Of a stretch of 64,000 nt of DNA, positions 9,975 through 60,165 are shown piece by piece; positions within the stretch are counted from its first letter, which is position 1; each line of letters begins with the position of its first letter. Origin of the DNA: Companilactobacillus tucceti DSM 20183 (lineage in GTDB: Bacteria > Bacillota > Bacilli > Lactobacillales > Lactobacillaceae); contig NZ_AZDG01000002.1 in assembly GCF_001434665.1 (NCBI RefSeq), positions 62,001 through 126,000 on the forward strand, given 5' to 3'. Under the pieces are notes generated by a model. The model did no database searches, had not been told where the DNA came from, and was given only the letters and a program-made list of their open reading frames with translations. The position numbers were made by a program, and so were the translations under genes.

Positions 9975-11792
9975 TTGGCTACTGAATATCTTGAACATAA
10001 ATTAAGCCTTCTTCCACCTAAACCGGGTTGTTATCTGATGAAGGATGTTAATTCAAAGATAATTTACGTTGGTAAGGCCAAGAACTTAAAGAATCGTGTC
10101 CGATCCTATTTTAAAAGTTCACATGAAGGAAAGACTGCTAGATTAGTTTCTGAGATTCGTGATTTTGAAACTATTATAACTTCTAACGATAAAGAAGCGT
10201 TCTTATTAGAAATTACGCTGATTCAAAAACATCAACCTTATTATAATATTAAACTTAAACGTGGTACTGGTTATCCATATATCAAGATCACCAATGAACG
10301 TGATCCTAAAATGGAAATAACGGGATTAGTAAAAAAAGATGGTGGATACTATTTTGGACCATATCCTAACGTATATGCTGCTCAAAATACTTTAAACTTT
10401 TTACAAAAAGTTTATCCCTTGAGGCGTTGTCAAGGTCATTTAGGGCGTCCGTGTTTGTACTATCATATGGGACAATGTTTGGGTGCTTGTTTCAAAGAAG
10501 TGCCCAAGTCAGAATATGATACCCAAATTGAGAAAATCAAAAGCTTTTTGGGTGGAAACGTTGGTGAAATCAAAAGAAACTTAAATAGTCGTATGATGAA
10601 GGCTGCTAAAAAAGAGGAATATGAACGTGCAGCCGAGTTACGTGATCAAATTCAATATATTGAAGCAACCGTTGAAAAACAAAAAATCATCTCAAATGAT
10701 GGTACACCAAGAGATATTTTTAATTATTATGTTGAAAAAGGTTGGATCTCGATTCAAATATTCTTCATTAGACAAGCTAGACTTATGAAACGTGAAAAGC
10801 GTGTATTCGCATGTATTAATACACCTGAAGAAGAACTTTCTACGTTTATTCTTCAATTTTATAATCGTCGTAATCAAGTTATGCCTAGAGAAATATTAGT
10901 ACCTGATAATTTGGATAAAGATACTTTATCACAGGTCTTGAATGTACCATTTAGAACACCTCAACGTGGTCAAAAGAGAGATTTAATGGACATGGCACAT
11001 GAGAACTCTAAATTAGTTCTACAAGAGAAGTTTCGCTTGATGGAATTAGATAATAGACAGACATACGGTGCACAGAAACAAATTTTTGATGCATTAGGAT
11101 TGCCGTATGGTCATGTTATTGAGTCATTTGATCATTCTCATATTCAAGGAACCAGTCCAGTGTCGGCTATGGTTATGTTTCAAGATGGACGCCCTGAAAA
11201 GAGTGGTTACCGTAAGTATAAAATAAAGGGCGAAGTCGAACACCAATCAGGAGCCGATGAAGCTGCTAATACAAGAGAAGTTATTTATCGCCGATATTCA
11301 AGATTGATCAAGGAAAAAGATAATTTACCTGATTTAATTTTGATGGATGGTGGAATTATTGAACTTCGTGCTGTTATGGATGTATTGGAAAATGAACTCG
11401 GCATTCATATTCCCGTTGCAGGGATGGTAAAGGATGATCATCATAATACCTCTCATTTGATTGTTGGTGAAGATGGTGAGGAAGTTCCATTGGATCGAAA
11501 GAGCCAAGGATTCTATTTGTTACAAAGAATTCAGGATGAAGTGCATAGATTTGCTATAACATTTCATCGTAAAACAAGAAGTAAAAATGCTCTATCTTCA
11601 AAATTAGATGGTATTCAAGGTGTGGGACCTAAGACTAGAACTAAATTGTTGAAGAAATATGGTTCAGTTAAGAAAATGAAAGAAGCATCCGTTGAAGATA
11701 TTACTAATTTGGGTATTCCTAAGACTACAGCGCAGACTATTAAAATTACGCTGGCAAGTACAGATTTTCATAAAAAATATAAAAAGGGATAA
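9975..11792 (+). CDS. uvrC: Excinuclease ABC subunit C
   Basis: 605 residues, standard UvrC length. It makes the dual incisions around UvrB-bound DNA lesions in nucleotide excision repair. The GIY-YIG nuclease domain begins at GCYLMKDVNSKIIYVGKAKN (about 14-33). A UVR motif that contacts UvrB is seen at EEYERAAELRDQ (about 213-224), then the RNase-H-like endonuclease domain, then paired helix-hairpin-helix motifs near the end (LDGIQGVGPKTRTKLLKKYG). The start is TTG 9975, preceded by GGAAGGGG; ATEYLEHKL is the usual UvrC beginning. Confidence 0.97.
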   Translation: MATEYLEHKLSLLPPKPGCYLMKDVNSKIIYVGKAKNLKNRVRSYFKSSHEGKTARLVSEIRDFETIITSNDKEAFLLEITLIQKHQPYYNIKLKRGTGYPYIKITNERDPKMEITGLVKKDGGYYFGPYPNVYAAQNTLNFLQKVYPLRRCQGHLGRPCLYYHMGQCLGACFKEVPKSEYDTQIEKIKSFLGGNVGEIKRNLNSRMMKAAKKEEYERAAELRDQIQYIEATVEKQKIISNDGTPRDIFNYYVEKGWISIQIFFIRQARLMKREKRVFACINTPEEELSTFILQFYNRRNQVMPREILVPDNLDKDTLSQVLNVPFRTPQRGQKRDLMDMAHENSKLVLQEKFRLMELDNRQTYGAQKQIFDALGLPYGHVIESFDHSHIQGTSPVSAMVMFQDGRPEKSGYRKYKIKGEVEHQSGADEAANTREVIYRRYSRLIKEKDNLPDLILMDGGIIELRAVMDVLENELGIHIPVAGMVKDDHHNTSHLIVGEDGEEVPLDRKSQGFYLLQRIQDEVHRFAITFHRKTRSKNALSSKLDGIQGVGPKTRTKLLKKYGSVKKMKEASVEDITNLGIPKTTAQTIKITLASTDFHKKYKKG

Positions 11793-57666: not shown

Positions 57667-57816
57667 ATTAAGATCTCTACTTTCAAATTAGTTAATTACA
57701 TTATAATACAGATGAATTAATGGTGAGTGAATAGAAGAAGACTCTTTTTCAAGAGACAATTGCGAACGTGTGTTTTATAATTAAAGGTGATTTATATAAA
57801 TGAAAGAGGAGTTTTT

Positions 57817-60165
57817 ATGTCAACAAAGGTAGGTATTCGACAATTAGTTGAGTTTGTTTTACGTAAAGGTGATTTAGTCGAAAATAAGAATAGTCAAAAT
57901 ACTGCCTTAGCTGGCGCAAGAATTCATCGAAAAATACAAAGTCAGCGTTCAACGGATTACGAAAGTGAAGTCTATCTTAAAAAAGCAGTAACTATGAATG
58001 ATCAGGAATATATAATTTCAGGTCGTGCTGATGGTATTAAAAAAACTAAGGACTCAATATTGATTGAAGAGATTAAAACGTCAGATCAAGCGTATGAGGA
58101 TCTGTCTGATAATACTAATGATCTGTACTGGGGACAAGTGAAGGTTTATGGCTATCTATTGTTACAAGATGAGGACTTTGAAAAGGTTACTTTACAATTA
58201 ACATATTTTCAGGTGACCACGGAGAAAGTAACAAAGATAAAAAAGGATTTTACTAAATCAGAATTGACCAAGTTCTTTGTTGATTTAATATCTGAGTATG
58301 AATATTGGTTAAAATTACGAGCAGATTTACGCAAGCAGCGTAACAAATCTATAAAAACTTTATCTTTTCCATTTCCAGAATTTCGTCCTGGGCAGCATGA
58401 ATTAGCAGGGGCTGTATATAAAACAATTTATTTGCAAAAGAGGCTTTTCGTTGAAGCGCCTACTGGTACGGGTAAAACCATTTCTACATTATTTCCAGCA
58501 CTAAAAGCGATGGGTGAAGATTTGATTGAGCGTCTTTTTTATTTAACCGCTAAGCAAAGTACAAGACATGTTGCTGAAGACGCAGTTGAGATGATGATCA
58601 AAGATGGCCTACACATAAAATCCATTACTTTAACAGCCAAAGATCAAATACGTTTTCCAGAAGAAATGGATTTATTGCCAGAAGAAAATCCTTATATGAT
58701 TGGTTATTATGATCGATTAAAACCAGCATTAAAAGATATGCTGACAAATGAAGAGTTATTAACTAGACCATTCATAGAAAAATACGCGAGAAAGCATACA
58801 GTTGATCCATTTGAATTTTCATTAGATGCATCTCTTTTTTGTGATGTTATAATTTGTGATTACAATTACTTGTTTGATCCATTAGTTTATTTACAAAGAT
58901 TCTTTACTGAAAGCGACCCTGATAATTTCTTTTTGATCGACGAAGCACATAATTTAGTGAGTCGGTCGAGGTCTATGTATTCAGCTGAATTATCTAATCA
59001 ACCTATAGATGATCTTTTAAAATTATCCAAATCAGATAAAAGTCAGGCAAGTGAAGATCTTCAAAAACAATTAAAAAAAGTACGACGTTGTTTTAAAGAG
59101 ATAGCTAATGAATTGAAAAATCAAGAAGAATATATTTCAGATGAAGAACCTGAGAAGCTTTTAAAAGTATTGAGAAAATTTGATGAATTTATTACTGACT
59201 GGATGCAAAAGCAAAACCCATCTGAATTGGTCAAATCAGTTCAAGATTATTTTTTTGATTGTCTTACTTTTGTCAAAATAGGGAATTTATTCAATAAAAG
59301 CTATAATACAAGAATTGTTATTGATGGTAGAAAAGTGATCGTTAAACAATTGTGCCTCGATCCTAGTGACTTTTTAGACCAATCTTTGCAACTAGGTTCA
59401 GGAGCTGTTTTATTTTCCGCAACTTTGACGCCGATGAATTATTATCAAAATGTATTAGGTGGAATCGAAAATAGTTTAGCTTATCGATTGCCGTCACCAT
59501 TTCCACCAAAAAATCAGGATATATTGGTTACACAGTACATACAGACAACATATATTCAAAGAAAGTATAGTGAGAATGCCATTGTTACTAGCTTGAAGAC
59601 ATTAATAGAAGCGAAGACTGGAAATTACATGTTTTTCTTTCCTTCATATGGTTATCTTAGGCAAATTGAAGATGCATTTGAAAAAGTTTGTCCGGATATT
59701 AAGATAATAGAGCAAGAAAGTGAAATGGATGCGGTAAGTCGTCAGGAATTTTTGAATCAGTTTGAAGACGCTCCAAAAGAAACCATGGTGGGATTCTGTG
59801 TCTTGGGTGGTATATTTTCAGAAGGAATCGATTTAAACGGTGATAGATTAATTGGCGTTGGAATAATTAGTGTTGGGTTACCTGGATTAAGTTCAGAAAA
59901 TAATTTAATTCGTGATTATTATGATCAGGAAGATAATAAAGGATTTGCTTATGCATATCAGTTGCCAGGGATGAATAATGTTTTGCAGGCAGCAGGAAGA
60001 TTGATCAGAAGTAGCAAAGATGTTGGAATCATATTGTTATTAGACCAAAGATTTGCGAATAGTAGATATACAAATTTATTTCCAAATCATTGGCAGAATT
60101 ATCGACTTATTCGTTCGATACCTCAGTTGCAAGATGAGGTTAGCAGATTTTGGGAAGATAAATGA
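57817..60165 (+). CDS. RecB-like nuclease fused to an XPD/DinG-type helicase
   Basis: 782 residues. Residues 1-180 carry a Cas4/RecB-type PD-(D/E)XK nuclease: H37 (GARIHRKI), D72 (GRADG), E85-x-K87 (EEIKT) and Q107/Y111 (QVKVYGY). From about 190 a superfamily-2 helicase follows: APTGTGKT (about 215-222), DEAH (375-378), FSATLTPM, and QAAGRLIRS near 725. The four cysteines of the usual Fe-S cluster appear replaced (R279, L286, N291, D330). It probably unwinds and trims DNA during repair. I chose ATG 57817 after GAGGAG; the longer frame is unsupported. Monocistronic, with its own terminator. Confidence 0.87.
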   Translation: MSTKVGIRQLVEFVLRKGDLVENKNSQNTALAGARIHRKIQSQRSTDYESEVYLKKAVTMNDQEYIISGRADGIKKTKDSILIEEIKTSDQAYEDLSDNTNDLYWGQVKVYGYLLLQDEDFEKVTLQLTYFQVTTEKVTKIKKDFTKSELTKFFVDLISEYEYWLKLRADLRKQRNKSIKTLSFPFPEFRPGQHELAGAVYKTIYLQKRLFVEAPTGTGKTISTLFPALKAMGEDLIERLFYLTAKQSTRHVAEDAVEMMIKDGLHIKSITLTAKDQIRFPEEMDLLPEENPYMIGYYDRLKPALKDMLTNEELLTRPFIEKYARKHTVDPFEFSLDASLFCDVIICDYNYLFDPLVYLQRFFTESDPDNFFLIDEAHNLVSRSRSMYSAELSNQPIDDLLKLSKSDKSQASEDLQKQLKKVRRCFKEIANELKNQEEYISDEEPEKLLKVLRKFDEFITDWMQKQNPSELVKSVQDYFFDCLTFVKIGNLFNKSYNTRIVIDGRKVIVKQLCLDPSDFLDQSLQLGSGAVLFSATLTPMNYYQNVLGGIENSLAYRLPSPFPPKNQDILVTQYIQTTYIQRKYSENAIVTSLKTLIEAKTGNYMFFFPSYGYLRQIEDAFEKVCPDIKIIEQESEMDAVSRQEFLNQFEDAPKETMVGFCVLGGIFSEGIDLNGDRLIGVGIISVGLPGLSSENNLIRDYYDQEDNKGFAYAYQLPGMNNVLQAAGRLIRSSKDVGIILLLDQRFANSRYTNLFPNHWQNYRLIRSIPQLQDEVSRFWEDK

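Follow-up and report, generated by a model that had tools for sequence, protein, structure and literature searches.

The window, that is, the whole 64,000-nucleotide stretch of Companilactobacillus DNA that was analysed, very probably encodes a LexA-controlled PD-(D/E)XK nuclease-XPD/DinG helicase (EndoDinG) in which the [4Fe-4S] domain has turned into a pseudo-FeS domain that carries no cluster. All features listed here lie on the plus strand.

57763..57776, +: LexA (SOS) box-like site CGAACGTGTGTTTT, 54 nt 5' of the ATG, one mismatch to CGAACRNRYGTTYC
57817..60165, +: gene for a PD-(D/E)XK nuclease and XPD/DinG-type 5'-3' helicase (EndoDinG-like), 782 aa from the ATG
57817..58341, +: N-terminal PD-(D/E)XK nuclease domain, residues 1-175 (PDDEXK_1; H37, D72, E85, and K87 conserved)
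58456..58479, +: Walker A, APTGTGKT, residues 214-221 (A214, T216, G217, G219, and K220 invariant in 73 sequences)
58603..58839, +: putative pseudo-FeS domain, residues 263-341, no cysteine (alignments; AlphaFold2 pLDDT about 80-96)
58651..58653, +: R279 at the position of Fe-S ligand Cys1 (alignment)
58672..58674, +: L286 at the position of Fe-S ligand Cys2 (alignment)
58687..58689, +: N291 at the position of Fe-S ligand Cys3 (alignment; N, rarely D, in the clusterless Lactobacillaceae core)
58804..58806, +: D330 at the position of Fe-S ligand Cys4 (alignment; D in 97% of the clusterless Lactobacillaceae core)
58939..58950, +: Walker B or DEAH box, residues 375-378 (D375, E376, and H378 invariant in 73 sequences)
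59596..60099, +: helicase C-terminal motor domain, residues 594-761 (Helicase_C_2; Q724, G727, R728, and R731 invariant in 73 sequences)
9975..11792, +: UvrC with four cysteines (C-x7-C-x7-C-x3-C), by sequence motif

Domain architecture and ligand positions of the helicase-nuclease

The plus-strand reading frame was open between 57787 and its stop codon at 60165, and the in-frame GTG at 57787, which lies 30 bases 5' of the ATG at 57817, is a possible longer start. The protein matched the Pfam families PDDEXK_1 at its N-terminus (residues 38-156, 25.4 bits against a cut-off of 22), DEAD_2, and Helicase_C_2 (E 9.9e-43). Its best solved full-length relative was the DinG of Finegoldia magna (PDB 9kqh, E 2.1e-165), and the structural alignment of the two (VIA-align) extended over 736 residues with a Z of 42.8 and 40% identity. 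The nuclease residues E51, D72, E85, I86, and K87 were invariant among 73 sequences, and H37 was nearly so. The protein contained the N-terminal PD-(D/E)XK domain with the H, E, D, E, and K residues of an EndoDinG nuclease, as well as the XPD/DinG core with two motors, the Arch, and the position of the inserted Fe-S domain, but it carried R279, L286, N291, and D330 in place of the CCCC motif for [4Fe-4S]. By these motifs, it is an orthologue-level relative of EndoDinG with a pseudo-FeS domain, and not a canonical EndoDinG. A search of the window genome for a cysteine-bearing paralogue returned this single match only, and no gene neighborhood was conserved beyond close congeners.

The sequence-only reading of this DNA had named these four residues as replacements for the cysteines, and its numbering was exact when counted from the ATG at 57817; the columns matched the four cysteines of 9kqh (KVCINNEVKCNPNDC...VCPLE in 9kqh vs. 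QIRFPEEMDLLPEEN...VDPFE in the window protein). The flanks of the replaced ligands were conserved in the alignments, whereas ligand positions 1 and 2 themselves were variable in the clusterless Lactobacillaceae core. The seven cysteines of the window protein were located at residues 342, 347, 425, 482, 513, 625, and 661, and a search for alternative cysteine ligands found none before residue 342 and none in the nuclease or Fe-S domain; thus, no other four-cysteine site is apparent, and the concern that cysteines elsewhere in the fold could ligate a cluster was not borne out. The protein presumably holds no iron at this site. A sequencing artefact was ruled out because every orthologue fetched from the same genus was also without these cysteines, and the three nearest of them shared 82-85% identity with the window protein.

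Comparison of the window gene with its closest congeners gave a dN of 0.09-0.19 and a dS near saturation, and the region of the Fe-S domain behaved alike. A pseudogene was ruled out by a dN far below dS together with the conservation of motifs, and these rates indicate that the gene is not decaying and is under purifying selection. The earlier description of an open frame and a gene that looks functional agrees with the open frame, the intact motifs, and the substitution rates. The enzyme would probably retain its helicase and nuclease activities. Structure prediction with AlphaFold2, which had been proposed as a check, gave a mean pLDDT of 91.2 for the whole window protein, with about 80-96 in the Fe-S region, and of 91.8 for a CCCC protein of Enterococcus; the cluster loops reached values near 80-83 in both. 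The best structural match of the window model was again 9kqh, and the pseudo-FeS fold is predicted to survive the loss of the cluster. However, since AlphaFold2 was equally confident for the cysteine-bearing Enterococcus protein, the model alone is silent on what replaces the cluster.

Cysteine states among relatives and independent losses

Relatives were taken from whole genomes and from a scan of named genomes and then aligned, which yielded 227 near-full-length proteins. At the ligand columns, four cysteines were present in 101 of these, three in 2, one in 5, and none in 119. The wider family thus carries the ligands, which answers the objection that it may never have had cysteines here. 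All sampled relatives outside Lactobacillales retained four cysteines except for one that retained three, and the CCCC proteins outside this order included those of Clostridia, Paenibacillus-like Bacilli, Verrucomicrobia, and a Heimdallarchaeota MAG. Four cysteines were also found in proteins of Listeria, in Carnobacterium-like and Vagococcus proteins, and in most Enterococcus proteins. They were absent from nearly all Lactobacillaceae, part of Lapidilactobacillus, Tetragenococcus, and one other Enterococcaceae genome. The genera with no ligand cysteine comprised Companilactobacillus (the genus of the window), Lactiplantibacillus, Levilactobacillus, Pediococcus, Loigolactobacillus, Secundilactobacillus, Furfurilactobacillus, Fructilactobacillus, Lentilactobacillus, Ligilactobacillus, Liquorilactobacillus, and Lacticaseibacillus. 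Within Lapidilactobacillus, a series was observed that ran from CCCC (L080 and L236) and CLCC (L090 and L234) to AYSD (L153 and L094) and a similar form with no cysteine (L233 and L235), and Schleiferilactobacillus had one canonical cysteine and one that was shifted. In the two CLCC copies, the helical Arch region was also extended by a stretch of more than 100 residues, placed near position 430 of the query. Among the congeners of the window genome, two (G002 and G034) had a split or frameshifted helicase gene, and one with a genome of 1.5 Mb (G020) was without it.

Trees were built without the Fe-S columns and were evaluated by parsimony counts and AU tests. Parsimony counted five changes. 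A single origin of the clusterless state was rejected (AU p 5e-43), as were a clade of all clusterless Lactobacillaceae, consisting of the core, clusterless Lapidilactobacillus, and Schleiferilactobacillus (p 1.7e-7), and a clade of the core and clusterless Lapidilactobacillus (p 1e-108). On the other hand, one loss for the two Enterococcaceae cases (p 0.28) and one for the core together with Schleiferilactobacillus (p 0.42) were compatible with the AU test. Because these two joinings survived, the safe statement is that the trees indicate at least three losses, in Enterococcaceae (Tetragenococcus halophilus L179; L101), in Lapidilactobacillus, and in the core Lactobacillaceae, rather than the five of parsimony. 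The alignment with homologues and the mapping of cysteine loss on a tree, both proposed in the sequence-only reading, accordingly showed relatives with the ligands and recurrent loss. The pseudo-FeS form of this known helicase-nuclease is thus real, extends across the clade, and has arisen repeatedly.

Probable LexA control, Fe-S assembly and other repair enzymes

The LexA box-like site was situated inside a sigma-70-like promoter sequence (57753-57781). The pattern matched once in the window against 0.46 matches expected, which alone could be chance. A box of conserved sequence was also found at nearly the same position 5' of the orthologous genes in Companilactobacillus, Lactiplantibacillus, Levilactobacillus, Lacticaseibacillus, Schleiferilactobacillus, and Listeria. 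Overall, it occurred in 36 of 106 upstream regions of orthologues (1.8 expected from shuffles), namely in 19 of 41 clusterless (0.8 expected) and 17 of 65 cysteine-bearing ones (1.0 expected). The 13-letter core of the box was present five times in the window genome, 5' of the helicase gene, parE, a gene for a Y-family polymerase, and recA, and once within a gene. The intragenic match (L312:1501-1513), in a gene for a 668-aa protein that lies 5' of a ribosomal-protein-L9-like gene, is probably due to chance. Since five sites were also obtained with the reversed-pattern control, there was no genome-wide excess, and the argument for SOS control rests on the genes preceded and on conservation. 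The box lies in the promoter, is common to recA and other SOS genes, and is conserved in relatives; its position 54 bases 5' of the start and its conservation in other genera make it probable that the helicase gene belongs to the SOS response, in lineages with the ligand cysteines as well as in those without them.

The window genome contained adjacent genes for SufB and NifU_N (SufU-type). The cell can thus make clusters, and absent Fe-S assembly was ruled out as the cause of loss in this genome. SufB scored above the cut-off in 155 of 201 Lactobacillaceae genomes, most clusterless relatives retained SUF, and both clusterless Enterococcaceae cases were found in SufB-positive genomes. Seventeen Lactobacillaceae genomes harbored the helicase gene without matches to SufB and NifU_N, and 16 of them were at least 97% complete; it is very unlikely that the helicase holds a cluster in these 17. 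Examples are G049, G086, and G060, whose lineages may be without Fe-S assembly. Only 8 of the sampled Lactobacillaceae copies had three or four cysteines, which is too few to claim that SUF and the cysteine state are statistically associated.

Other repair enzymes have lost their cluster motifs as well. The C-x6-C-x2-C-x5-C motif of MutY was lost in all tested Lactobacillaceae with a readable gene (L258-L272) except for genus g12, which retained both this motif and the helicase cysteines; by sequence, the MutY of Schleiferilactobacillus is clusterless too. The motif was retained in Listeria and Enterococcaceae, and no MutY match above the family cut-off was obtained in the window genome. The endonuclease III of the window genome (Nth; L296, C50:71401-71934) was also without C-x6-C-x2-C-x5-C, and retained the lysine of GRKTA and the aspartate of VDTHV. 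This motif was lost in the window genome, its congeners, g15, g4, g38, g24, and g11, and kept in g12, g14, g21, g22, and g33. The distribution suggests that the helicase and MutY lost their clusters first and endonuclease III later. UvrC, which has also been reported as an Fe-S protein (PMC9266487), retained its four cysteines in every Lactobacillaceae genome tested, even in those without SufB, which indicates that the shedding of clusters is selective. In the Enterococcaceae genome G355, which has a clusterless helicase (L101), the UvrC motif was altered (L320; QCLCPY for QCLAPC). Given the SufB and NifU_N genes and the UvrC cysteines, the cell of the window genome is not simply free of Fe-S proteins.

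Possible explanations and known systems

Within motor domain 1, the proposed pseudo-FeS domain would keep both its location and its fold, and it would probably still contact and guide single-stranded DNA. Protein contacts, including the conserved N at ligand position 3, the D at position 4, and conserved neighbors, may replace iron in holding the loops. The enzyme would then unwind and cut DNA after damage and would stay switched on even if clusters became oxidised or ran short. Disruption of the Fe-S motif abolishes the helicase activity of E. coli DinG and archaeal XPD (PMC12345164), and the motor could accordingly retain only nuclease or translocase activity. A vestigial motor, in a protein that is now chiefly a nuclease or a DNA-binding factor, is nevertheless highly improbable: every helicase motif examined, Walker A and the C-terminal motor arginines included, was invariant, dN falls well short of dS, and two proteins with a pseudo-FeS domain, S. 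aureus DinG and CasDinG, do unwind DNA.

Several selective reasons for a cluster-free helicase-nuclease were considered. The sequence-only reading favored an adaptation of iron-poor lactobacilli. On this account, the cell would save iron by dropping dispensable clusters. The part of this idea that stood is the wider shedding of clusters: the endonuclease III of the window genome and MutY across the family have lost their motifs too, and some lineages that bear the helicase gene lack SufB and NifU_N altogether. However, SUF is retained in the window genome and in most clusterless relatives, both Enterococcaceae losses occurred in SUF-positive genomes, and UvrC keeps its four cysteines throughout the family sample, even without SUF, which makes saving of iron a rather unlikely cause. 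Peroxide attacks exposed Fe-S clusters and is formed by many lactobacilli. Peroxide-forming, catalase-poor bacteria might therefore do away with oxidisable clusters in those SOS and base-excision enzymes on which they depend during oxidative damage; all three affected proteins are DNA-repair enzymes, and the helicase appears to be LexA-controlled. The same retention of cysteines in UvrC speaks against this protection from oxidants, which is a possible, if doubtful, reason. The cluster could also have been only a structural staple, whose loss through drift was compensated by packing and brought no benefit. The variability of ligands 1 and 2 in the clusterless clade, as if the side chain no longer mattered, fits such a neutral replacement, but at least three losses inside one order and none among the sampled relatives outside it, together with the repeated change of ligand 4 to D in Lactobacillaceae, render it an improbable account. 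It may be, and is put forward tentatively, that Lactobacillaceae turned EndoDinG, MutY, and endonuclease III cluster-free successively while SUF was present, and that this partly enabled the later loss of Fe-S assembly in some lineages.

For the [4Fe-4S] clusters of repair helicases and glycosylases, roles as a structural staple, as a redox switch, and in DNA charge transport have been considered. Here, one enzyme has apparently been stripped of the cluster repeatedly, although its sequence and catalytic motifs were kept, as was its probable control by DNA damage. The CCCC, CLCC, and zero-cysteine orthologues within Lapidilactobacillus form natural pairs for directly testing the contribution of the cluster. 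Furthermore, the parallel losses in MutY and endonuclease III and the helicase-bearing genomes without SUF would make Lactobacillaceae a model for the shedding of Fe-S dependence in DNA repair.

In the literature searched, which left most subscription papers outside, no report was found of a clusterless EndoDinG or of a clusterless endonuclease III in lactobacilli, and no publication was found for PDB 9kqh. Clusterless MutY is known, according to the account in PMC11078426, which cites Trasvina-Arenas et al. (2016). It resembles the present case as a DNA-repair enzyme stripped of its [4Fe-4S] ligands, as in most Lactobacillaceae tested here, and differs in being a glycosylase whose fold is unrelated to the helicase. 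That study of clusterless MutY reportedly covered Lactobacillus.

CasDinG, CasDinG-HNH, and part of the ExoDinG proteins, among them the ones from Bacillales and Lactobacillales, have been described as possessing pseudo-FeS (pFeS) domains (PMC11981726). No cluster is required for DNA unwinding by the pFeS proteins S. aureus DinG and CasDinG (PMC12345164; PMC10450177; PMC11981726). CasDinG (Csf4) of type IV CRISPR shares with the window protein a pFeS domain without cysteines and is an active 5'-3' helicase (PMC10450177), whereas the window protein includes a nuclease domain and its gene is preceded by a LexA box; the protein was not identified as Csf4, as TIGR03117 scored 33.5 bits against a cut-off of 400. 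The ExoDinG of S. aureus and of Bacillales and Lactobacillales is likewise an active helicase with a pFeS domain that lacks cysteines (PMC12345164), but its N-terminus is a DEDD 3'-5' exonuclease rather than a PD-(D/E)XK domain, and it is described as not LexA-controlled and shared 16% identity with the window protein in a structural alignment (9ii8). An ExoDinG identity was rejected because the window protein has no DEDD N-terminus and scored far under the cut-offs of NCBIfam dinG_rel and PRK08074. The EndoDinG subgroup (PD-(D/E)XK and DinG; Cheng, 2025) was described with a conserved CCCC motif (PMC11981726). The window protein is like EndoDinG and the Finegoldia magna DinG (9kqh) in its full-length domain order and in its nuclease and helicase motifs, and unlike them in the Fe-S domain, which is CCCC in these proteins and retains none of the four cysteines in the window protein.
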